Shown: positions 42,769 through 54,574 of the stretch, one piece after another | Layout of the letters: the number at the start of each line of letters is the position of its first letter | Position numbering within the stretch: position 1 is the stretch's first letter | NCBI RefSeq assembly: GCF_000214355.1 | Contig: NC_015577.1 | Span: forward strand, 2,533,389 to 2,597,388 | Reading direction: 5' to 3' | Origin: Leadbettera azotonutricia ZAS-9 | GTDB taxonomy: Bacteria > Spirochaetota > Spirochaetia > Treponematales > Breznakiellaceae | Length of the DNA: 64,000 nucleotides | The notes under the pieces: model-generated | The model's database searches: none | What the model saw: the letters and a program-made list of their open reading frames with translations, nothing else | Told to the model about the DNA's origin: nothing | Made by a program: the position numbers and the translations under genes

Positions 42769-43341
42769 ATGAAAACAGATATAATCCTTGCAGGCGTGGG
42801 CGGACAGGGCGTGCTTTCCATAGCCGCCATCATAGCCCAGGCGGCGGTTAAAGAAGGGCTCATAGTGCGCCAAAGCGAAGTTCACGGCATGGCCCAGCGG
42901 GGCGGAGCGGTTCTGGCCCACCTCCGCATATCCGACACAACCATTTATTCCGATCTGGTGCCTCGGGGCATGGCGGATATGATCATTTCCATGGAGCCTT
43001 TGGAAAGCCTCCGCTATACCGCGTGGCTTGCCCCCCAGGGGACATTGGTCACTGCGGCGGAACCTTTCATCAATATTCCCAATTATCCTGAATTAAGCGA
43101 AATCATCAAAACCATCAAAGCCTTCCCTGCCGCCCATGTTGTGGAGGCCGCCGCTCTTGCAAAAGAGGCGGGTTCCCAGCGGTCGGTAAACATGGTCATG
43201 GTGGGGGCGTCTTCTCCCTTCCTCCCCATTAAAGAAGGGACCATGGAAGAAACCATAGCCGCCATGTTCGCCTCCAAGGGCGCGGAGATTGGGGAAACAA
43301 ACCAAAAAGCCTTTCGCCTGGGGAGGAACGCGGCAAAATGA
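42769..43341 (+). CDS. iorB: Indolepyruvate:ferredoxin oxidoreductase beta subunit
   Basis: 190 residues, the gamma-type domain of 2-oxoacid oxidoreductases. ILAGVGGQGVLSIAAIIAQAA and RQSEVHGMAQRGGAVLAHLRI are characteristic. AAGGAAACAGA precedes the ATG. It lies 26 bp after pyk and overlaps paaK by 4 bp. Partner of IorA in this operon. Confidence 0.95.
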   Translation: MKTDIILAGVGGQGVLSIAAIIAQAAVKEGLIVRQSEVHGMAQRGGAVLAHLRISDTTIYSDLVPRGMADMIISMEPLESLRYTAWLAPQGTLVTAAEPFINIPNYPELSEIIKTIKAFPAAHVVEAAALAKEAGSQRSVNMVMVGASSPFLPIKEGTMEETIAAMFASKGAEIGETNQKAFRLGRNAAK

Positions 43342-44651
43342 ATTTCCAGTACTGGAACAGTGAAATCGAAAAAATGCCCCGACAGGACCTTGAAGCCCTG
43401 CAGGTAAAGAAACTAAAGGCGGCAGTGGATCAGGCCCTGAAAACTCCCTTTTATAAAGAACGGCTCACCGGGGCGGGGATCAAAAGCGGGGACGACATTA
43501 AAACCCTCTCGGACTTGAGGAAGATCCCCTACACCACCAAGCACGATTTGCGCGACGGCTTCCCCTACGGATTCCTGAGCATTCCCAAAGAAGAAGTAGT
43601 GCGCCTCCACGCATCAAGCGGCACAACCGGCGCCCCTACCACGATTTATTTTAACGCCGGCGACATCAAGCGCTGGACAGGCTATGTGGCCCGCTGCATT
43701 TACGGCACCGGCTGCAACAAGACCGATGTGTTCCAGAACATGATCACCTACGGCCTTTTTACCGGGGGCCTGGGTTTTCACCAGGGCGGCGAGGAAGTAG
43801 GCATGCTGGTGATTCCTTCCGGTTCGGGAAACACGACACGGCAGTTCCGCCTTATGCAGGACTTCGGCACAACCGTGGTTCACGCCACACCCAGTTTTCT
43901 CCTCCATGTCGAATCAAAAATGAAGGAAGAAGGCGTCAGTAGGGATTCCATAAAGCTGCGCAAGGCTTTTGCCGGGGCCGAGCCCTATTCGGAAGACACC
44001 CGGCGGCGCATAGAAGAACTCCTCAAAATCGATGTGTACAATTCCTACGGCCTTTCCGAAATGAACGGCCCCGGCGTGGCGTTTGAGTGCCAGTGCAAAA
44101 GCGGTCTCCACCTTTGGGAAGACGGCTACATCGGCGAAATCATCGACCCCGATACCTTGGAGCCCCTTCCGGACGGTCAGACAGGGGAGCTTGTCCTTAC
44201 CTGCCTTTGCAGGGAAGCAACGCCAATACTGCGTTACCGTACGCGGGACCTTTCAAGCTTCTATACCGATGCCTGCGCCTGCGGCAGAACCCACCGCCGT
44301 CTCCGCCGTATCACGGGCCGCACCGACGACATGCTCATCATCAACGGCGTTAATGTGTTCCCCAGCCAAATCGAAGAAGTGGTTATGGCCATGAAGGAAG
44401 TAGGAAACAATTACCTCATCGTGCTTGAAAAAGAAGGGGTTTTGGACCGGCTCATTGTCAAGGTTGAAGTAGGCGCCAATGTCTTTATGGACGACTCCAG
44501 GCTCCTCAACGCGTTAAAAGAAAAGATACGCAAAACCCTTCAGGCCATGATCACCATCAACCCGAAAGTGGAACTCCACGAATCAGGGGCACTGCCCGTA
44601 AGCGAAGGCAAAGCCAAGCGAGTCCAGGATAACCGGCCCAAGGACGTGTAA
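43338..44651 (+). CDS. paaK: Phenylacetate-CoA ligase, copy 1
   Basis: 437-residue adenylate-forming enzyme. LHASSGTTGAPTTIYF (P-loop), NSYGLSEMNGPGVAFECQ, YRTRDLSSF and GRTDDMLIINGVNVFPSQIEEV are PaaK signatures. Cys-rich C-A-C-G near residue 315 is typical. With IorAB it can activate an aryl acid to its CoA ester for reductive carboxylation to the aryl-pyruvate, or run the reverse direction in fermentation. Overlaps iorB by 4 bp. A second copy lies at 53273-54574. Confidence 0.95.
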   Translation: MNFQYWNSEIEKMPRQDLEALQVKKLKAAVDQALKTPFYKERLTGAGIKSGDDIKTLSDLRKIPYTTKHDLRDGFPYGFLSIPKEEVVRLHASSGTTGAPTTIYFNAGDIKRWTGYVARCIYGTGCNKTDVFQNMITYGLFTGGLGFHQGGEEVGMLVIPSGSGNTTRQFRLMQDFGTTVVHATPSFLLHVESKMKEEGVSRDSIKLRKAFAGAEPYSEDTRRRIEELLKIDVYNSYGLSEMNGPGVAFECQCKSGLHLWEDGYIGEIIDPDTLEPLPDGQTGELVLTCLCREATPILRYRTRDLSSFYTDACACGRTHRRLRRITGRTDDMLIINGVNVFPSQIEEVVMAMKEVGNNYLIVLEKEGVLDRLIVKVEVGANVFMDDSRLLNALKEKIRKTLQAMITINPKVELHESGALPVSEGKAKRVQDNRPKDV

Positions 44652-44652
44652 A

Positions 44653-44677
44653 GGCGGCGTTTCATAACAGCGCCGTC
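44653..44677. terminator. Hairpin between convergent paaK and the DUF4384 gene
   Basis: GGCGGCG - 11-base loop - CGCCGTC, seven pairs with one G.T. It covers the 24-bp gap and the first base or two of the DUF4384 stop codon. No T-run, so terminator activity is uncertain. Confidence 0.4.
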
Positions 44678-45266
44678 AATGATTTATCACTATGGACTTA
44701 AAATACTTTTCCGCGCCCGAATAGGCAACCCCTTCCAGATCCTGATTAAAACCACGGAAAGCGCCCCCCATTTGAACAGGCCGTTCAGGCGCTTCCTTCA
44801 GCGCAGAGATACTGCGCCTGAAATCCAGGGCGGCGTTTGCCACGTTCCGGCCGTCCCTGAAAGCGCCGCTTTTGCGGAACATCTCGATACGGCTTTCCAG
44901 AGCCGGATCTTTTTCGCGGCTTACAATGAGATGAAAAGTTTCCGTACCGGCGGGGGCGATAATCTGGACCGGGTCCGATTCCAAAACCTGGCCTGCAGGC
45001 AGGGGGCCGCTGTAAACAACCGTAACATTGCGGTCCGCATCCTGGGCAATAATATAGACATGGCAATCCGCCGCAGTGGAAATCAAAAAACTCACCGTGT
45101 CGCCGTTCCGCATGGACACCGGACGGGAAACAGGCAGCGCAGCGCTTCGCTTTTTATCCACTGCGGCAAGAGACCATTCAAAAGCCTGCGCAAAAAGAGA
45201 TGGCCCCAAAAGAAACAGCCATACATACAGTGCCGCAGCAAAAGCGGCGGATAAAAATCTTTTCAT
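44676..45266 (-). CDS. Exported DUF4384-type protein, partner of the caspase-fold protease
   Basis: 196 residues with a signal peptide (about 1-26, ending SLFA-QAF). The mature part begins with a beta-sandwich of the DUF4384 kind (MRNGDTVSFLISTAADCHVYIIAQDADRNVTVVYSG, followed by an extracellular-type ETFHLIVS strand) and ends in a helical tail. DUF4384 domains are repeatedly found fused to or beside caspase-like peptidases. Here the start overlaps the caspase gene stop by 4 bp. A strong GGGAGGG site precedes the ATG. Probably periplasmic. Confidence 0.75.
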   Translation of the reverse strand: MKRFLSAAFAAALYVWLFLLGPSLFAQAFEWSLAAVDKKRSAALPVSRPVSMRNGDTVSFLISTAADCHVYIIAQDADRNVTVVYSGPLPAGQVLESDPVQIIAPAGTETFHLIVSREKDPALESRIEMFRKSGAFRDGRNVANAALDFRRSISALKEAPERPVQMGGAFRGFNQDLEGVAYSGAEKYFKSIVINH

Positions 45267-46666
45267 AAAACCCTCCCTTGCTTTTTGCCGTAGGGAAGGG
45301 TTACGCTAAGCCCCAGAGTTCCCTGCAGGAAATTCAGACTATATGAGCCGCTGCCCTGCACAGGGTAAGGCCCCTGCACGTCAAGATAATACCCAAGGTT
45401 CAGCTCTACCGCCAAAAGGGGAGTAAACCTGAAAGCCGCCCCGCCGTGGAAGCCAATCATAGGTTCCACGAAAAAATCATCAACCTCGGTAAAACCCGGA
45501 TCGTTGTACGAATAATGTATGGAACCCAAAAACACATTGGCAGAAAGACCCGCGCTGAGGAAGAAACGCTGATTTGCATCAGGGCGGAATTTCCAGAGAG
45601 CCCCCGCGCCGGGCATATAGTTATAAAACGAGTCCCCGTTGTCCGCAAACTTGTTAAGCCCCGCCTGAAAACTGACAAAAAAAGCGTTGGGAGCGATAAA
45701 CAAAGCGCCCCGGCTTAAAAACCGTTCCAGAAAGGTATAGTTCACGGCCGCCCCCGGATGAAGAGCGTCAAAACCCGTATTGGGATTGGCGGCAAAAGAA
45801 AAGGACAGCGCCCATGCGCCGGTGTTGTCCAGCGAATACTGCCCCCTTCCGGCGGCAGAAGCCCGAGGAGCGCCTACAGAAGGAACTACAGAACGGGTGA
45901 TTTCGATTAAGCCATCCGAAGGATAGAGGGAATAATCCTTTACATAGAGGATATTGTCGGAAATATAAGGCCGCTGGTTGGTGCGGGTAATGGCGATGGT
46001 TTCGCGGGAGATTTCCTTTGCAACGCTTTCCAGTATGGCGGGAGTTGCGATATGCTTAAGAAACGCCTGGGTAAAGGGACTGTTCCGCGCGCCCGGAGTA
46101 CCGTCGTCGGCAGTCGCCCCCGTGGCAGTAGAAAACATGATAAACGTATCCTGCACCTGGGGCGCCGCGGCAAGGCCCCGGCTTAAACTGCGGCTTTCGC
46201 CCGGCAGGGGGTTGTTCCTGCATGCGTCCAGGATGACCACGTTGACCAGGTTGCGGGCGTTCTCCAGTTCGCGGAGGAGATCCCCCAGGGAGTAGGACAT
46301 ACGCCTTACCTGGCTTATGCGTTCCGCCCGTATGTCCACAGGGAGGAGGTAGTTCTCCCCCTCGGCCTGCACCCCGTGCCCCGCATACCAGAAGAAGCCC
46401 TCGTTTTCGCGGTCCGTACCCAGAGCAGCGGAAAAACGGTAGATCGCCTCTTCCATCTCGTCGATCCCCGCGTCAAGGCGCAGGTCTACCTTGAAGCCCA
46501 GGCTTGCCAGAGCCGCCGCTATGTCTTCCGCATCATTCCGTGGCGTACCCAGGGACTCAATGTCAACATAGCGCGCATTACCGATAACCAGCGCATACCG
46601 CTCCCCTGCCCAAAGCATGGGGAAAGCGAGAAGAACAAAGAACAGAACGATGACGGGTTTTTTCAT
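45263..46666 (-). CDS. Exported caspase-fold peptidase fused to a beta-barrel-like domain
   Basis: 467 residues. Signal peptide 1-20 (ends LWA-GER). Residues about 22-245 are a peptidase C14 (metacaspase/paracaspase) domain: YALVIGNARYVD, catalytic H97 in WYAGHG and C149 in LDACRNNP, then FIMFSTATGATADDG. Residues about 270-467 show repeated amphipathic strands with aromatic ends (GALFIAPNAFFVSFQAGL, FFLSAGLSANVFLGSIHY, LLAVELNLGYYLDV, LQGTLGLSVTLPYG) like a small outer-membrane barrel. Unlike a typical barrel it ends in KKQGRVL rather than Phe. Protease on the envelope is inferred; no known substrate. Confidence 0.85.
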   Translation of the reverse strand: MKKPVIVLFFVLLAFPMLWAGERYALVIGNARYVDIESLGTPRNDAEDIAAALASLGFKVDLRLDAGIDEMEEAIYRFSAALGTDRENEGFFWYAGHGVQAEGENYLLPVDIRAERISQVRRMSYSLGDLLRELENARNLVNVVILDACRNNPLPGESRSLSRGLAAAPQVQDTFIMFSTATGATADDGTPGARNSPFTQAFLKHIATPAILESVAKEISRETIAITRTNQRPYISDNILYVKDYSLYPSDGLIEITRSVVPSVGAPRASAAGRGQYSLDNTGAWALSFSFAANPNTGFDALHPGAAVNYTFLERFLSRGALFIAPNAFFVSFQAGLNKFADNGDSFYNYMPGAGALWKFRPDANQRFFLSAGLSANVFLGSIHYSYNDPGFTEVDDFFVEPMIGFHGGAAFRFTPLLAVELNLGYYLDVQGPYPVQGSGSYSLNFLQGTLGLSVTLPYGKKQGRVL

Positions 46667-46680
46667 GGGCTGTTTCCTTT

Positions 46681-49680
46681 TTATGGGATGGGTTGAATAA
46701 TATCAACACTGCTAATGCCTGAACTTGCCAGGGCTATTTTGTAATCATCAACAGAATCGGCGGGGACGTAGATGGCGGTAACGGGACTTCCGGAGAACAA
46801 ATTGCCCATAATATCGATGCTAGGCGGGGTTATGCCGTTAAAGATAATGCTGGTTAGACTGCTGCAATTCATAAAAGCTTCATTGGTTATCAAAATAAGT
46901 TCAGCAGGTAAGGTGATGCTGGTTAGACTGCTGCAGCCTCTAAAAGCCCTCCTTCCTATCAAAATAAGTCCATCAGGTAAGGCGATGCTGGTTAGACCGC
47001 TGCAACCATAAAAAGCATTGCTTCCTATCGAAGTAAGTCCGTCAGGTAAAGTAATGCTGGTTAGACCGCTGCAACCATTAAAAGCAAAGTCTCCTGTCGA
47101 GGTAACTCCATCAGGCAAGATGATGCTGGTTAGACCGCTGCAACCATTAAAAGCATTGCTTCCTATCGAAGTAAGTCCATCGGGCAAGATGATGCTGGTT
47201 AGACCGCTGCAACCATTAAAAGCATTGCTTCCTATCGAAGTAAGTTCATCAGGCAAGGGCATGCTGGTTAGACCAGTGCAACCACTAAAAGCACCGTCTC
47301 CTATCGAAGTAAGCCCAGTCGGTAATGTTACACCGGTTAAAGTTTGGCAGCCGCGCAATCCTGCGCCAGCTTCAGGTGCATCCGGTATTTCTGTAAAACC
47401 GCATGCGCTCAAATCCAGGTACACAAACGCATCGCCAATAGCCTGTTTAAGGTTTTCCAGATCTGTATTCTCCACCGTACTTATGCCCTTGAGGCTTATA
47501 TCATAGGGATTTGTTTCGCTGTTTGATCCAAGATAGTCCAAAAGCCCTGCCAGATCGGTAAAATCGTTGCCGATGATGGTGAGGAATAATCCAGGTTTGA
47601 TAATATCAACACTATTAGCAAAGAACGTCTTGTAAGCGTCAACAGATGCGAAGGGGACGTAGATGGCGGTAAGGGGGCTGTCGGAGAACACTAAGGCGCT
47701 CATACTGGTCGGCGGGGTTATACCGTTAAAGGTGATGCTGGTTAGACTGATGCACTCTCTAAAAGAACGCGTTTCTACTGTAGTAAGTCCAGCAGGAAAA
47801 GTGATACTGGTTAGACTGCTACAGCCGCCAAAAGCATCGCTTCTTATCGTAGTAACCCCAGCAGGTAAGGTGATGCTGGTTAGACTTCTGCACCCGGAAA
47901 AAACCTTGGAACTTATCGTAGTAACCCCAGCAGGTAAGGCGATGCTGGTTAGACTGCTGCACCCGGTAAAAGCAGTGTTTAATATCGAAGTAAGTCCATC
48001 AGGTAAGGCGATGCTGGTTAGACCACTGCAACCATAAAAAGCATGGCCCTCTATCGTAGTAACCCCAGCAGGTAAGGCGATGCTGGTTAGACCGCTGCAA
48101 CCATAAAAAGCATTGCTTCCTATCGAAGTAAGCCCGGTCGGTAATGCTACACCGATTAAAGTTTGGCAACCGCTCAATCCTGTTCCGGAACTACCCGAGG
48201 GTATTTCTGTAAAACCGCATGCGCTCAAATCCAGGTACACACACGTACCGCCAATAGCCTGTTTAAGGTTTTCCAGATCTGTATTATCAGCCGTACTTAT
48301 ACCGGTAAGCCGTACCGGATAGGGGGTTTCAGCAGAGCTTCCCGGAACAACGCCGCTCATAAGGTCCTCAAGATCGCTAAAGCTGTTATTGGTTATTTCA
48401 AATAGACAGCCCCATTCGATTTCCGCATCAAGGGTAACATCCCCCAAGGGCATGTTCCAATTGACGGAAGGGACTGTTCCACCGATGGTATAGGCAAGGT
48501 CTTCTGTCCCCCGTTTAAGGCTAACGGCATCGTCCCTTATCCGGTAATAGCTTCCTATACTATTATAGCTTGCGGTAACCTGTTCGCCGCCAAAAGCGGA
48601 CGCTGGAACGGAAAGATCGCCTTCCCCCGAGGCGTTTACCGTAATGGTGTACTTGCGCACCGCCGGGGTAGTGATGCCGCTTTTCCCTTCAGGTGGAATA
48701 TTGGTAAGCGCTGCGGCCTCGCCGTAACATTTGTCGCTTGTACTTGTGGCAAATTCAGGCCGCAGGTACAGGGTTCCCCCTGTTTTGGCCGCATCCACAG
48801 CAAGGGCAAAGGAAGCCCCCGGCTGGGTTGGGACAGAAGCCGCCAAAGGGTCGCCGATACACTCCGCATTATCATAGACTGCCGCCCAAAGGGCGATAAT
48901 CCCTTCGGCGTCGTCCAGCGGTACTGTTCCCGCCAAGTATATTCCCGCGGTAAAGTCCCCATCAGCCAAATCAACGGCGGGCAGCTCTTGAGCATAGGCT
49001 GGGTAAATGTGGACTATCTCGCTGCGGGTAAAAAAGCGGTTGCCGTCTATGCGGATCATTATTTCCACAGAATAAAAACCTGCCGGAAGTTCCTCGCTTC
49101 CCACAGGTTCAGCCTCAAGGTTCTTTGTTGCTAAAAGAGACCCGCCGGAAACGGATTTGATGGTAAGCTCGGCAGAACTTACAGCGTCCTGCAATTCAGG
49201 GTCCAAGGACGAAAAATTCACATCCCAGCTTAGAGCTCCGGGAACCGACCCCTCGGTATAAGGGGCAATGCGGACGGTTATGAGCGGGTTTGGGCCGGAA
49301 ACAACGGCTTTTTCAATAGAGCCTGTTCCCGCAAGGATTTCGCCCCTGTAGGCGTTCACGGTGATTTTCCAGCTTCCCGGTGGGATTTCCAGGAATCCTT
49401 CTTCGTTTATAGGCTGTTCGGGAATAAGGGTTCCGGCGGGCACGCTTTCGATAACGGCCTTATAGGCAAAGGCAGAGACTGGCGGAAGCAGGGTACGGCC
49501 CTTGCCCTCAGTTCCAGCAATGCGGATCTCCACCAATGCGGGAGAAGCAGGAGCAAAAGAGTTTGCAACCGGTACCTGAACCGGAGGTTCAAGCAGATTC
49601 GTACACCCTGCAAAGACTATTCCCGCTAGGAACACTGCTATTAGCGGGTATCGAATGTTTGTCAGCTTCTTTCTTTTCAT
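46681..49680 (-). CDS. BspA-type leucine-rich-repeat surface lipoprotein
   Basis: 999 residues. Lipoprotein signal with VFAGC (Cys26). Residues about 45-420 are beta-rich, with possible Ig-like segments. Two modules follow, each opening with a related segment (NTDLENLKQAIG...VYLDLSACGFTEIP) and then 23-residue TpLRR/LRR_5 repeats (LTSIALPDGLTSIGSNAFYGCSG): about seven repeats at 507-650 and eight at 783-943. Each array ends with FNGITPP...AIYVP. BspA-like proteins mediate adhesion to host or bacterial surfaces. AAGGAACAGAAG precedes the ATG. Middle gene of the four-gene (-) block, 14 bp before the caspase gene. Confidence 0.93.
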   Translation of the reverse strand: MKRKKLTNIRYPLIAVFLAGIVFAGCTNLLEPPVQVPVANSFAPASPALVEIRIAGTEGKGRTLLPPVSAFAYKAVIESVPAGTLIPEQPINEEGFLEIPPGSWKITVNAYRGEILAGTGSIEKAVVSGPNPLITVRIAPYTEGSVPGALSWDVNFSSLDPELQDAVSSAELTIKSVSGGSLLATKNLEAEPVGSEELPAGFYSVEIMIRIDGNRFFTRSEIVHIYPAYAQELPAVDLADGDFTAGIYLAGTVPLDDAEGIIALWAAVYDNAECIGDPLAASVPTQPGASFALAVDAAKTGGTLYLRPEFATSTSDKCYGEAAALTNIPPEGKSGITTPAVRKYTITVNASGEGDLSVPASAFGGEQVTASYNSIGSYYRIRDDAVSLKRGTEDLAYTIGGTVPSVNWNMPLGDVTLDAEIEWGCLFEITNNSFSDLEDLMSGVVPGSSAETPYPVRLTGISTADNTDLENLKQAIGGTCVYLDLSACGFTEIPSGSSGTGLSGCQTLIGVALPTGLTSIGSNAFYGCSGLTSIALPAGVTTIEGHAFYGCSGLTSIALPDGLTSILNTAFTGCSSLTSIALPAGVTTISSKVFSGCRSLTSITLPAGVTTIRSDAFGGCSSLTSITFPAGLTTVETRSFRECISLTSITFNGITPPTSMSALVFSDSPLTAIYVPFASVDAYKTFFANSVDIIKPGLFLTIIGNDFTDLAGLLDYLGSNSETNPYDISLKGISTVENTDLENLKQAIGDAFVYLDLSACGFTEIPDAPEAGAGLRGCQTLTGVTLPTGLTSIGDGAFSGCTGLTSMPLPDELTSIGSNAFNGCSGLTSIILPDGLTSIGSNAFNGCSGLTSIILPDGVTSTGDFAFNGCSGLTSITLPDGLTSIGSNAFYGCSGLTSIALPDGLILIGRRAFRGCSSLTSITLPAELILITNEAFMNCSSLTSIIFNGITPPSIDIMGNLFSGSPVTAIYVPADSVDDYKIALASSGISSVDIIQPIP
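46840..47340 (-). repeat. 69-bp tandem LRR-coding repeats, array 2
   Basis: About eight units of 69 bp. Two neighbouring units (around 47100-47260) are nearly identical over their whole length. The array is the C-terminal one of the LRR lipoprotein, and its period explains the spurious long open frames on the opposite strand. Confidence 0.85.
47720..48170 (-). repeat. 69-bp tandem LRR-coding repeats, array 1
   Basis: About seven 69-bp units, related to array 2 at an offset of roughly 0.82 kb, because the whole module (pre-LRR segment plus repeats plus cap) is duplicated within the gene. Identity between modules is highest at the conserved TGTAAAACCGCATGCGCTC segment and in the repeats. Confidence 0.85.
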
Positions 49681-49699
49681 CTTCTGTTCCTTTTCCTAC

Positions 49700-51637
49700 C
49701 TATAAAACCACGTTGAAATAGAGGGCTGTCGTATAGGGTATGCCATCCCGCACAACCTGTACTGTCAGTTCATGGCCGTTCCTTATGCTGTAATCCGCAG
49801 CGTCAAGGGTTATAGTCCAGACGCCCACCGCAAAAACTGCCGAAAGAGGAGGAGGATCGTTGCCATTAACCTTATACCCAACCGACGTATAAAGACCGGA
49901 TGGGGCGCGAACCTTCACAAGGGCTGTCTTTACCGCGCCCGTTTTGGACAGCGTCAAGGTCTGCCCTGAAGACGGCGGGGGATCAATTTCAATCTGTATG
50001 TCTTCGTCTCCGGGGCCTACAGAAATACTGCCCCACTGCGTTACCGTAAGGGTATAGGTTTTGTGGTTTTCTCCGTCTTCCGACGTAACAATAACAGTGG
50101 CGGACGCAGAACCTAAGGCCAGGCTCAGGGTTCCCGAAGCGGAAGCAGCGTCCGAAGCAACGACAATACCCTCTGTACTGCTGCTTATCCGTGCGTTGCT
50201 CCCGCTTGTTACCAATGCGTTTAGCGTGACCGATCCAACAGAGGAGGGTACTTCAAGGGTATAATCCCTGCCGGAACTATCCGGAATAAATGGGGGGGTC
50301 AGGGGGTAACCAGCCGCCCCAAAGGCCCCAAGGGTTGCTGTATTGTTCAGTACCGTAACATTAAAACTGGTAGAAAGGGCGGCGGGAATGGGGCTTCCCT
50401 TCCCTCTTACGGTTACCGGTATTGCCGTCCCTGCTGCGCTGCTGTCAAAGGCATAATTAAAATTGCCAGAATCAAGGATTACGGGCGTTTCCGTGGTGTC
50501 GGTTCCGGTTATTTCGATACCGGCGGTGTTCAGATTTTCGCCTATCTTGTATGCCGTCCTATCGGGGTTCTTTGTAACGGCGATGCTGGCCAGCGCGGCG
50601 TTTGTTACCGTAACCTGATACGGAATTTGAGCATTATCAAGGCCGGTCAGAACCAAGGTACGGGATGTTGTAAAATCCATCTGGCTTGTCGGGCTGTATC
50701 CATTCCCCACATATTCCACCACCGGCGCCGGCAGACCGGAAAGATCGGCGCCGTAGGGTACAGTTACCTGAATGGTCTTTGGGGACGGGGCGTTGTTTAT
50801 CATACCGTAATAGGTCCTTCCGTTAATGATAAACTTGAATATCTCTATTCCCGAACCGCCTGAAATAGCGCTTTTCCGTATTACGCTAAGGGTATAGGTT
50901 TCGAGATTTTCTCCGTCTTCCGAGATAACGGTAACAGCAGCGTATGCGGAACCGGAGGCCATGCTCAGGGTTCCCGAAGCGGAAGCGGCGTCCGAAGCAA
51001 CGACAATGCCCTCTGTACTGCTGCTTATCCGCGCATTGCTCCCGCTTGTTACCGACGCGTTTAGCGCAACCGACTCGACAGACGAGGACACTTCAAGGGA
51101 ATAATTCCTGACTGCGCTTTCCGGGACAAATGCGGGGTTCAGGGAAAAACCGGAAACCACAAAGGCCCCCAGGGTTGCTGTATCGTTCAGTTCCGTAACG
51201 TTGACAAGCTTCCATTCGCCCGCATTGCGGTTGCCGGACTTATCCAGGGTAACAAGACGGAAAAAATAGACCGTGTCGGGCGAAATGGTAAGAGCCAAGG
51301 TATAGGCCCCTTGTTCGCCGGGGAGCAGGCCGTTTAGCAGGATAGGCGCCAGGGCTTCGCCGTCCATGGGGGTCGGGGGCGCCTCCCCGTCCCCGGCTGC
51401 CGGGGCTATGACGATTTCGATTTCCATGGCGGTAAAATCAGGATCATCGGGATTAATCCAGTGAAGGTCAAAACCGGCGGGTATTTTATTGACTTGCGTA
51501 ATATCCACTGCCCCGGGGGCCTGCGTATCGGGGTTTACCGTCAAAAAACCGCCCCGGCAGGCGCCAAAAAGAGCGAGAACCAGCCCCAGAACGCAAACCA
51601 GGGGCGAAAAGTACTTTGGGATGAAATACTTTTTCAT
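49700..51637 (-). CDS. Cadherin-like/Ig-like domain surface lipoprotein
   Basis: 645 residues from ATG 51637, with lipobox LFGAC (Cys27). After a fibronectin-like first domain (LHWINPDDPDFTAMEIEI), two cadherin-like beta-sandwich domains occur (FVPESAVRNYSLEVSSSV and FIPDSSGRDYTLEVPSSV). Between them lie a DUF5018-like stretch and a bacterial Ig-like segment (NPDRTAYKIGENLNTAGIEITG). A C-terminal beta domain closes it. Start alternatives at 51655 and 51682 exist; 51655 has TATATT five bases before it. Likely a surface adhesin or glycan-binding scaffold, first gene of the block, 19 bp before the LRR gene. Confidence 0.85.
   Translation of the reverse strand: MKKYFIPKYFSPLVCVLGLVLALFGACRGGFLTVNPDTQAPGAVDITQVNKIPAGFDLHWINPDDPDFTAMEIEIVIAPAAGDGEAPPTPMDGEALAPILLNGLLPGEQGAYTLALTISPDTVYFFRLVTLDKSGNRNAGEWKLVNVTELNDTATLGAFVVSGFSLNPAFVPESAVRNYSLEVSSSVESVALNASVTSGSNARISSSTEGIVVASDAASASGTLSMASGSAYAAVTVISEDGENLETYTLSVIRKSAISGGSGIEIFKFIINGRTYYGMINNAPSPKTIQVTVPYGADLSGLPAPVVEYVGNGYSPTSQMDFTTSRTLVLTGLDNAQIPYQVTVTNAALASIAVTKNPDRTAYKIGENLNTAGIEITGTDTTETPVILDSGNFNYAFDSSAAGTAIPVTVRGKGSPIPAALSTSFNVTVLNNTATLGAFGAAGYPLTPPFIPDSSGRDYTLEVPSSVGSVTLNALVTSGSNARISSSTEGIVVASDAASASGTLSLALGSASATVIVTSEDGENHKTYTLTVTQWGSISVGPGDEDIQIEIDPPPSSGQTLTLSKTGAVKTALVKVRAPSGLYTSVGYKVNGNDPPPLSAVFAVGVWTITLDAADYSIRNGHELTVQVVRDGIPYTTALYFNVVL
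50041..50350 (-). repeat. Duplicated cadherin-like module, copy B
   Basis: 310 bp that match 50881-51190 at a constant offset of exactly 840 bp without gaps in my reading. The central part (SGSNARISSSTEGIVVASDA) is almost identical in both, which points to a recent duplication or gene conversion inside one gene. Confidence 0.85.
50881..51190 (-). repeat. Duplicated cadherin-like module, copy A
   Basis: Partner of 50041-50350; same length and register. It encodes the first cadherin-like domain of the lipoprotein. Confidence 0.85.
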
Positions 51638-51747
51638 TCTATAATAGTCCTTCATTATACAATATATCACGCTTTTTTGCATAAATCACGTATTTCTTGA
51701 TAGTATTTCTTGAATCTTATTTCAACAAAGCCGAAAAGGGCCCTGCT

Positions 51748-53145
51748 TTACAGGGCTTCTGTTTCTTTTTTGGCGATAAAGCGGTACAGGATGCCCAGGC
51801 TGAAAAGCAGGAGGCCCGCAATTACCATGATGAACTGCTTGTTTCCAATCGAAAAGCTGAAAACTTCCAGTTTTAACGAACCAGTACCGGCAACAAAGAC
51901 AGAACCGCAAAAAAGCCCCAGCATGGCCATAAAGCTGTTAAAGCCCGCGTAAAAAGCAAGGAAATCCGTCCTCCCCTCTTCGGGCAGCTTGTAAAAAGGC
52001 AGATTGGAAGTAACGATGCTCACCCCGGGAATAATCGAGAAATAGTAGATCATCGCCGCTGTATAAAGGTAGACATAATTATCCCTGCTCACAAAGGGCA
52101 GCATAAAATAATGGAAAGAAACCAAAAGCAGGGAGAGCGAAATCGTTTTGAACCAGGAGCTGTTCCTGATTATATGGTTCCATACAGGAATGGCAAAAAG
52201 CATGATAGGTACCGAAAGGAAATTGACTACACCCAGGTAAGAGAAAGGGGCCACAACATCGTTTACCAGGTAGGAGCTATAGTACATGCCCGGGATATTG
52301 GCAAAGAAACTGTAGAGCCCTGTAAGCAATGTGCATATCATAAACTCCTTGTTCCTTAAAGGGAGGAAGATATTAATGCGCGGATGGGGATCGCCGCCGG
52401 GCTCTTCGGAACCAGGCTCGTCGAATTCATGGACATGGCAGTGGGCGTAAATCTCAAGGGCAGCAAAGAAGAGGCCGATGATACGCACCGCCGTAATCCC
52501 CGCGAAGAGGCTTCCGCTGCTCCTGAAAAAATCCACCACATAGCCGCCAATCAGTATAAACACATAGATACAGATATTTATCAGCAGATTGAGGACCGAA
52601 AAAAAGTCCGCCCTGGATTCCTCGGGGATGGAGCGTATGTGCAGCACCGAATAGCCAGGCGCTGCCAGGGCGTTTATCAGATTCGCAAAGACCGTTGCCG
52701 CAAGGAGCAAGCCTACCCTAAAACCATCTTCCCCCGGCACAAGGGGGATAAGCCCTATGACAACAATAAAAAACGTGTAATAGACGATCCGTGTCGCCAG
52801 GAGCACGAGCTTTTTGCGCTTAAAGCGGTTCAGGAGGAGGGGGCTTAAAATCTGGAAAATATTGCAGAATTGTATAAGGGTGGTGAGTACGCCCAGGAGC
52901 ACATCGCTTACATGGATAATCGCATAGAGGCCAACCAGGAAGTTGCCCCCCGCCATGTTCCCCGCGATATTGGCCGCGCCGTTCCACACAAGTATGTACT
53001 TCCGGGAATCCGCTTCAACAGAGCCGCCCGAAACAAGCCGCCTTACCCAGCGTGTTTTGCCGTTTAAGAGCTTGAACAGATTTTCCAGAGGGCGGCGGCG
53101 TTTTGTAAGCCATACGGGCCAAAAAGCCCCAGTTCTCATACTCAT
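51748..53145 (-). CDS. MFS-like multi-pass transporter
   Basis: 465 residues, about 12 membrane helices, with basic loops such as NRFKRKKLVLLATR after the second or third helix and a charged central loop (HVHEFDEPGSEEPGGDPHPR). The overall layout is that of the major facilitator superfamily, possibly the less-studied group seen in spirochaetes and clostridia; the substrate is unknown. The N-terminal about 45 residues are basic and hydrophilic. Two in-frame ATGs (53145, 53139) have no ribosome site. Divergent from paaK copy 2 across a 127-bp AT-rich gap in which TAAACTCTA occurs twice. Confidence 0.82.
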   Translation of the reverse strand: MSMRTGAFWPVWLTKRRRPLENLFKLLNGKTRWVRRLVSGGSVEADSRKYILVWNGAANIAGNMAGGNFLVGLYAIIHVSDVLLGVLTTLIQFCNIFQILSPLLLNRFKRKKLVLLATRIVYYTFFIVVIGLIPLVPGEDGFRVGLLLAATVFANLINALAAPGYSVLHIRSIPEESRADFFSVLNLLINICIYVFILIGGYVVDFFRSSGSLFAGITAVRIIGLFFAALEIYAHCHVHEFDEPGSEEPGGDPHPRINIFLPLRNKEFMICTLLTGLYSFFANIPGMYYSSYLVNDVVAPFSYLGVVNFLSVPIMLFAIPVWNHIIRNSSWFKTISLSLLLVSFHYFMLPFVSRDNYVYLYTAAMIYYFSIIPGVSIVTSNLPFYKLPEEGRTDFLAFYAGFNSFMAMLGLFCGSVFVAGTGSLKLEVFSFSIGNKQFIMVIAGLLLFSLGILYRFIAKKETEAL

Positions 53146-53272: not shown

Positions 53273-54574
53273 ATGATCTTCAATCCAGCGCAAGAATGTA
53301 TGGACAATGAAGCCAGAAAAAAACTCCAGCTGGCTAACCTCAAAAACCTGGTGGAAATGCTCTACACCAGCGTGCCTTTCTACAAAAATAAGATGGATAG
53401 CCTGGGCGTAAAGCCCACGGACATCCACAGCCTCAAGGACATCGAAAGACTGCCCTTCACCACCAAAGACGATCTCCGGGAAAATTATCCCCACGGCCTG
53501 CGGGCCTGTCCCAAAGACCGCATCGTGGAAGTCCACATGAGTTCGGGCACCACCGGCAAACCCGTGGTGGATGAATACACCATGAAGGATATAGACATCT
53601 GGCGGGAATCCATGTCCCGCACCATGGCCGCAGGGGGCTGTACCAAGGACGACATAGTCCAGAACTGCTACGGTTACGGCCTTTTTACCGGCGGGCCCGG
53701 CGCCCACTACGGCGCCCTCAATATCGGCGCTACGGTTCTCCCCATGTCATCGGGCAACACCGCCAGGCAGCTTATGGTCATGCAGGATTTTGACACTACC
53801 ATGCTCACCTGCACCCCCTCCTACGCCCTCTACATGGCGGAGGAAGCAGCCGACGCCGGCATAGACCTCCACAAGCTTCCCATCTCCAAAGGCTGCTTCG
53901 GCGCAGAGCCCTGGAGCGAGAACATGAGGAAGGAAATCGAAAAACGCTACGGCATGAAGGCCTACGACATTTACGGCCTCACCGAGATAATAGGCCCCGG
54001 AGTTTCCTTCGAGTGCGAAGCCCAGGACGGCCTCCACGTCAACGAAGATTTCTTCTACCCCGAAATCATCGATCCCCAGACCGGGAAGGTCCTGCCCGAC
54101 GGCGAAAAAGGCGAACTCGTGTTCACCACCCTTACCAAGGAAGGCACTCCCCTGCTCCGCTACAGAACCCGGGACATCACCTTCTTCCAGAGGGAATCCT
54201 GTTCCTGCGGCAGAACCACAGTCCGCATGCACCGCCTGTTCGGCCGTACCGACGACATGCTCATCATCAGGGGGGTTAACGTGTTCCCCAGCCAAATCGA
54301 GCAGGCCCTCATCGAAATCGAAGGCACCGAACCCCAGTACCTCATCATCGTTAACCGCGGCGAGTCCCACCTTGACGACGTGGAGCTTCAGGTTGAGGTC
54401 AAGAAGGAATTCTTCACCGACGAGACCAGGGGCCTCGAAGCCCTGAGGGCAAAAATCGAGGGGGTCATGAAGAGCAAGCTCCAGATTGGGGTTAAGGTAA
54501 AGCTCGTGGAGCCCAAAACCATAGAAAGATCCATAGGAAAAGCCAAAAGGGTTATTGATAACCGGAAAATATAG
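53273..54574 (+). CDS. Phenylacetate-CoA ligase, copy 2
   Basis: 433 residues, same family as the 43338-44651 copy but clearly diverged. Signatures: MSSGTTGKPVVDEYT, DIYGLTEIIGPGVSFECEAQDGLHVNEDFF, YRTRDITFF, CSCGRT and GRTDDMLIIRGVNVFPSQIEQ. AAGGAAGTTGTC precedes the ATG. It is followed by a tandem-ACT protein, a pairing seen in many anaerobes that handle aromatic acids. Different substrate from copy 1 (for example indole-acetate or hydroxyphenylacetate) is possible. Confidence 0.94.
   Translation: MIFNPAQECMDNEARKKLQLANLKNLVEMLYTSVPFYKNKMDSLGVKPTDIHSLKDIERLPFTTKDDLRENYPHGLRACPKDRIVEVHMSSGTTGKPVVDEYTMKDIDIWRESMSRTMAAGGCTKDDIVQNCYGYGLFTGGPGAHYGALNIGATVLPMSSGNTARQLMVMQDFDTTMLTCTPSYALYMAEEAADAGIDLHKLPISKGCFGAEPWSENMRKEIEKRYGMKAYDIYGLTEIIGPGVSFECEAQDGLHVNEDFFYPEIIDPQTGKVLPDGEKGELVFTTLTKEGTPLLRYRTRDITFFQRESCSCGRTTVRMHRLFGRTDDMLIIRGVNVFPSQIEQALIEIEGTEPQYLIIVNRGESHLDDVELQVEVKKEFFTDETRGLEALRAKIEGVMKSKLQIGVKVKLVEPKTIERSIGKAKRVIDNRKI

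Follow-up and report, generated by a model that had tools for sequence, protein, structure and literature searches.

A secreted caspase-fold protein with a predicted outer-membrane barrel tail in a spirochaete

A protein encoded within the stretch of DNA analysed here, termed the window (64,000 nucleotides, C1:2533389-2597388; the genome is one contig of 3,855,671 bases from what we take to be a termite-gut-type spirochaete), appears to join a caspase-fold peptidase to a small C-terminal outer-membrane barrel. Such an architecture, a periplasmic caspase carried on an outer-membrane barrel, is given a probability of about 0.8. In bacteria, caspases are mostly treated as cytoplasmic proteases of death or stress. 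A recurrent outer-membrane-anchored caspase, with a linked periplasmic partner and a cyclase, would give them a role other than death that is concrete and can be tested, and might be a way for the state of the outer membrane to reach the cyclic nucleotide signalling of spirochaetes. Neither the partner genes nor the other treponemal caspase-barrel proteins, both dealt with below, were part of the original prediction for this DNA.

Gene and neighbourhood

The caspase-barrel gene is a 467-aa ORF at 45263..46666 (minus strand, as are all features located below within the window unless otherwise indicated), which starts with ATG and whose product ends ...LPYGKKQGRVL. The protein would be secreted via an N-terminal signal peptide, residues ~1-20 (MKKPVIVLFFVLLAFPMLWA; 46607..46666), that is clear by eye. 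Separated from it by 14 bp on the upstream side is the gene for a BspA-type leucine-rich-repeat protein with a lipobox, FAGC (46681..49680; ORF list and Pfam), which is probably co-transcribed with the caspase-barrel gene, though its role is uncertain; no such gene was seen beside the caspase-barrel relative at locus L078, considered below. Together with a cadherin-like/Big_3 lipoprotein-like gene, this BspA-type, lipoprotein-like gene occupies 46681-51682 directly upstream (gaps of 14 and 19 bp), possibly as one operon of surface proteins. The whole minus-strand block that contains the caspase-barrel gene, 44676-53145, is flanked by two plus-strand genes for PaaK-like AMP-binding ligases, 43338-44651 and 53273-54574.

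A MALT1-like peptidase domain

Residues 23-238 (45953..46600) match Peptidase_C14 (PF00656) at 9.7e-30, with 104.4 bits against a cut-off of 21.4, and the caspase-fold peptidase that had been read from this ORF is thus borne out, the ORF limits being exact; the rest of the 467-aa protein has no Pfam match even at E<=1. By sequence the nearest solved structure is MALT1 (phmmer, 2e-10). The domain was predicted by AlphaFold2 with pLDDT mostly 84-98, and the predicted fold aligns with the MALT1 caspase domain 3v4o at 23% identity, TMt 0.81 and rmsd 4.1 Å (Foldseek). His97 (46376..46378), which aligns with the YAGHG motif of MALT1, and Cys149 (46220..46222, in LDACR) are the catalytic residues, and both are invariant in an alignment of 28 caspase relatives, as are Asp45 and Asp147. 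With the catalytic His and Cys present, the peptidase is probably active. Since paracaspases and metacaspases recognise Arg or Lys (PMC4357240), a basic P1 is expected here, and the alignment of Asp45 and Asp147 with acidic residues of MALT1 suggests cleavage after Arg or Lys.

Related caspases are present in 99 of 294 genomes of the order, with tails that vary (SUMF1/FGE-like, TPR or none). The same genome also encodes a second caspase of 673 aa (C1:877887-879908, L169:7888-9909; PF00656 1.8e-10), the tail of which has an LA_2272 surface repeat (31.6 bits, cut-off 25) plus a strand-rich end; it is perhaps another envelope-linked caspase.

Strands, turns and loops of the tail

The original prediction pointed to residues 250-467 as the part to model. 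The barrel proper is ~285-459 (~175 residues; 45290..45814), identified from the AlphaFold2 model, amphipathicity, turn/loop spacing and homologues; residues 250-284 (45815..45919) are a low-confidence linker, pLDDT ~28-45. Given an alignment with two tail sequences only, AlphaFold2 placed exactly eight strands in the tail at moderate confidence (pLDDT ~46-80), and a soluble sandwich or propeller was not obtained; on the tail alone as a single sequence, pLDDT was 32. The predicted strands are WALSFSFAA (residues 285-293; 45788..45814), the region HPGAAVNYTFLERF (303-316; 45719..45760, widened by alignment from 305-311), a region similarly widened from 328-339 (321-339; 45650..45706), and then 346-360 (45587..45631), 368-385 (45512..45565), 400-413 (45428..45469), 419-431 (45374..45412) and 443-459 (45290..45340), the last being followed by the extension GKKQGRVL. 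That the ending KKQGRVL is atypical is real, yet it is not exceptional among homologous tails, which end ...LSVSFWFPK, ...LGFSRWWVN and ...LTLWFPYRSRGQR (the last also given as WFPYRSRGQR). The last strand is accordingly taken to end at about Tyr459, what remains being a short extension.

Repeated amphipathic strands after the peptidase, also proposed earlier, are confirmed when the scores of the eight top amphipathic windows of 10 residues are added up, using a coarse table made for this analysis: over composition-preserving shuffles the tail has z=3.67 versus 0.47 for its own caspase domain, and three homologous tails have z 3.3-3.4. Fisher combination over the four-member family yields p 1.3e-8, a value that is indicative as homologues are not independent, and eight control segments (caspase domains and other tails) yield p 0.79. 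A fixed-threshold count of amphipathic windows was weak (p 0.05), the top-eight sum having been chosen afterwards. Aromatic content is 18% in the tail versus 8% in the caspase domain, and the tail has no hydrophobic helix (max KD19 1.11).

In four homologues the mid-to-mid distances across turns are 21/21/20/19 (T1), 23/23/23/22 (T2) and 19/19/19/19 (T3), and across loops 20/23/25/18 (L1), 23/38/34/24 (L2), 30/30/33/29 (L3) and 26/38/26/44 (L4), L2 and L4 of the homologous tails having large insertions. Near-constant T1-T3 alternating with variable L1-L4 is an outer-membrane signature, by which the caspase would lie in the periplasm. When the number of strands is even, the two ends of a barrel are on the periplasmic side, and for that reason also the caspase would be periplasmic. 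All told, the tail is very probably an eight-stranded outer-membrane barrel. The small barrel foreseen in the C-terminal half gains support from the predicted strands, their amphipathicity, the contrast of short near-invariant turns with long variable loops, and the presence of homologous tails on other secreted proteins. Barrel and periplasmic orientation of the caspase taken jointly are likely too, and the signal peptide, read by eye, and the predicted topology are in keeping with the earlier view of a protease held at the outer membrane facing the periplasm.

As neither Pfam (E<=1) nor the PDB provides a match for the tail, the best E of its profile search against the PDB being only 1.2, no membership in a named barrel family is claimed. 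Foldseek against the PDB with the whole predicted fold listed only caspases, the caspase domain dominating. The tail profile also has weak neighbours (L189-L203); Pfam identifies several of them as outer-membrane barrels (L189, L203) and others are unrelated short matches, which is a hint only.

Recurrence of caspase-barrel fusions

Searched with the tail alone, 294 genomes of the order gave no relative at E<=1e-3. In 200 genomes of the family one clear relative (4.9e-8) was found, at L065 in Treponema sp. isolate Emb289P4bin7, on the same contig as L078; the L078 protein is a fusion of signal peptide, caspase and tail with 39% identity to the window protein overall and 32% in the tail. A two-tail profile adds L171 (5.3e-11) and L172 (1.5e-4), where the tail lies behind other secreted N-terminal parts, LIC11435-like in the case of L171. 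Occurrence on different secreted N-terminal parts marks the tail as a small mobile module. A contig search with a single query sequence returned no match, and with the two-sequence alignment as query 33 loci; a search of viral contigs returned no match.

A second treponemal C-terminal strand-rich module, of ~140 aa and typically ending YRF, is present in 35 of the 200 genomes of the family. Its carriers include at least six further treponemal caspases (L011/L082, L035, L039, L040 and, by coordinates, G083:C26 and G267:C53) as well as LpoB/CsgG-like proteins, and in some cases it follows nothing but a signal peptide. By the same top-eight statistic its amphipathicity has an equally indicative p of 1e-11, and its members have weak OMP_b-brl matches (0.0014 in L033). 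Profile-profile comparison did not detect homology between it and the window tail. At L032-L061 this mobile, barrel-like module of 140 aa with the YRF ending, lacking a strong Pfam match, is to be seen on caspases, LpoB/CsgG-like proteins and Fn3-like proteins.

In the caspase tree, some branches of which are long, the carriers of either barrel type are not monophyletic: the window protein stands apart from L078, and the second module is split. Repeated fusion, or tail exchange, is therefore likely, caspases and barrels having apparently been joined on more than one occasion; a single origin was considered, and the same two separations in the tree count against it.

A secreted partner and a CHASE2-cyclase

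The stop of the caspase gene overlaps, as ATGA, the start of a gene for a secreted DUF4384-like protein of 196 aa (44676..45266; from the ORF list), for which the Pfam DUF4384 match, 1.2e-5 and 25.7 bits, is just below the cut-off of 27. At L078 a partner of 36% identity follows the caspase-barrel gene and is itself followed by a gene for a CHASE2-cyclase. Profile search finds the partner in 27 of 394 genomes, and at 28 of the 29 other loci inspected a CHASE2-cyclase homologue is directly downstream of it (<=600 bp, usually overlapping), with CHASE2 and Guanylate_cyc domains confirmed by Pfam in L155. At 11 of the 29 there is a caspase gene no more than 600 bp from the partner, a papain-type protease is upstream at one further locus (L159), and one partner locus has a caspase fragment at the contig end (L161). 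Most of the caspases beside the partner carry other tails, so that the barrel is not essential to the module. Over L140-L167 the DUF4384-like gene and the CHASE2-cyclase gene are a nearly fixed pair in treponemes, with upstream proteases that vary: caspase, WD40-caspase (L163-L165) or papain-type (L159).

At the window locus a convergent gene, instead of a cyclase gene, comes directly after the partner. The genome keeps one clear CHASE2-cyclase orthologue (619 bits versus 171 for the next), alone at C1:2033949-2035868, 540 kb away. It also has a broken second copy of the partner, C1:1742892-1743178 (L168, ~7.9-8.2 kb). For cyanobacteria, DUF4384 and CHASE2 are mentioned only as domains fused to caspases (PMC7475262). 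The literature searched, which was incomplete, contained no paper joining CHASE2, adenylate cyclase and Treponema, and no description of a DUF4384/CHASE2-cyclase/caspase cassette.

Proposed role and competing explanations

Following export directed by its signal peptide, the protein would insert its last 175 residues in the outer membrane as the predicted eight-stranded barrel, and the caspase domain would hang into the periplasm on a flexible linker. The most likely role is that of a sensor or transducer of an envelope signal: so tethered, the caspase may act on, or with, the co-encoded secreted DUF4384-like protein, and the latter may regulate a nucleotide cyclase of the inner membrane through the cyclase's periplasmic CHASE2 domain. 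Relatives encode the DUF4384-like protein and the cyclase as a single cassette, frequently preceded by a caspase gene; the cyclase gene of the window genome is unlinked. A signalling role of the caspase-barrel protein with these two components is a serious candidate at a little under even odds. More tentative is the wider proposal that treponemes and relatives have repeatedly docked caspases onto the inner face of the outer membrane by small barrels that are unrelated to one another. The docked protease would be the outer arm of a transenvelope relay, and together with a periplasmic DUF4384-like protein it would control a nucleotide cyclase of the CHASE2 type.

Given that the caspase domain is MALT1-like, the tail might be an Ig-like soluble beta-sandwich, as in MALT1 where Ig3 follows the caspase, and serve to regulate a periplasmic protease; the best Foldseek rows are indeed MALT1 caspase-Ig3 chains in alignments of ~450 columns, and the confidence of AlphaFold2 in the tail is moderate. 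However, the tail fails to superpose, since those long alignments have rmsd 17-26 Å and the caspase domain by itself has 4.1 Å, and eight strands of 7-18 residues over 175 aa are more than a single Ig domain contains. A barrel also fits the strict alternation of turns with loops and the two-fold amphipathicity, which leaves the sandwich unlikely. A barrel of a different kind, an autotransporter-like translocator, would place the caspase on the cell surface, where clan CD proteases, e.g. gingipains, do exist; the linker could thread a pore, and one weak profile neighbour of the tail (L203) is an autotransporter-type barrel. Classical translocators, however, are built of 12 strands around a helix that occupies the pore, compared with which eight strands are too narrow, and a partner and a CHASE2 sensor domain that are presumably periplasmic fit a periplasmic protease. 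Surface display is accordingly very improbable.

The remaining competitor accepts the periplasmic caspase on its barrel and disputes only the purpose, the caspase then being for programmed death or defence and not for cyclase signalling. Cell death is a frequent theme in discussions of bacterial caspases (PMC3501461), and the PADLOC matches include a caspase model (8.3e-12) and, for the cyclase domain of the relatives, PycC models. These PADLOC matches fall on ubiquitous catalytic domains, though, and anti-phage defence was rejected as unsupported; moreover, an export signal and pairing with CHASE2 are unlike abortive-infection systems of the cytoplasm, and beside the caspase/partner pair there was no further defence gene to be seen. 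Death or defence is accordingly a rather unlikely purpose, and an envelope-signalling function of the barrel-borne caspase is preferred to it.

Comparison with known systems

Architectures known for bacterial caspases include WD40, TPR, Sel1, FGE-sulfatase, NACHT and a few receptor domains (PMC3501461, PMC7475262), and in these surveys an outer-membrane barrel tail such as that of the window protein was not found described. With bacterial metacaspases/orthocaspases and paracaspases (Peptidase_C14, MEROPS C14B; MALT1 being the nearest solved structure) the window protein has in common the caspase fold, the His/Cys dyad and conserved Asp consistent with a basic P1. The second treponemal barrel module (~140 aa, fused to caspases, LpoB-like domains or just a signal peptide) is like the window tail in being C-terminal, strand-rich and amphipathic, and differs in showing no homology to it in the profile-profile comparison. 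The treponemal pairing of DUF4384 and CHASE2-cyclase genes is shared to the extent that a secreted DUF4384-like gene is beside a protease gene, but the cyclase gene that is next door in relatives has its orthologue elsewhere in the window genome. To eight-stranded outer-membrane barrels of the OmpA-N/OmpW/OmpX kind (Pfam OMP_b-brl), the window tail is similar in predicted strand number, amphipathic strands, short turns and variable loops. In OmpA, however, the barrel comes first, whereas in the window protein the order is reversed and the barrel is C-terminal to the protease.
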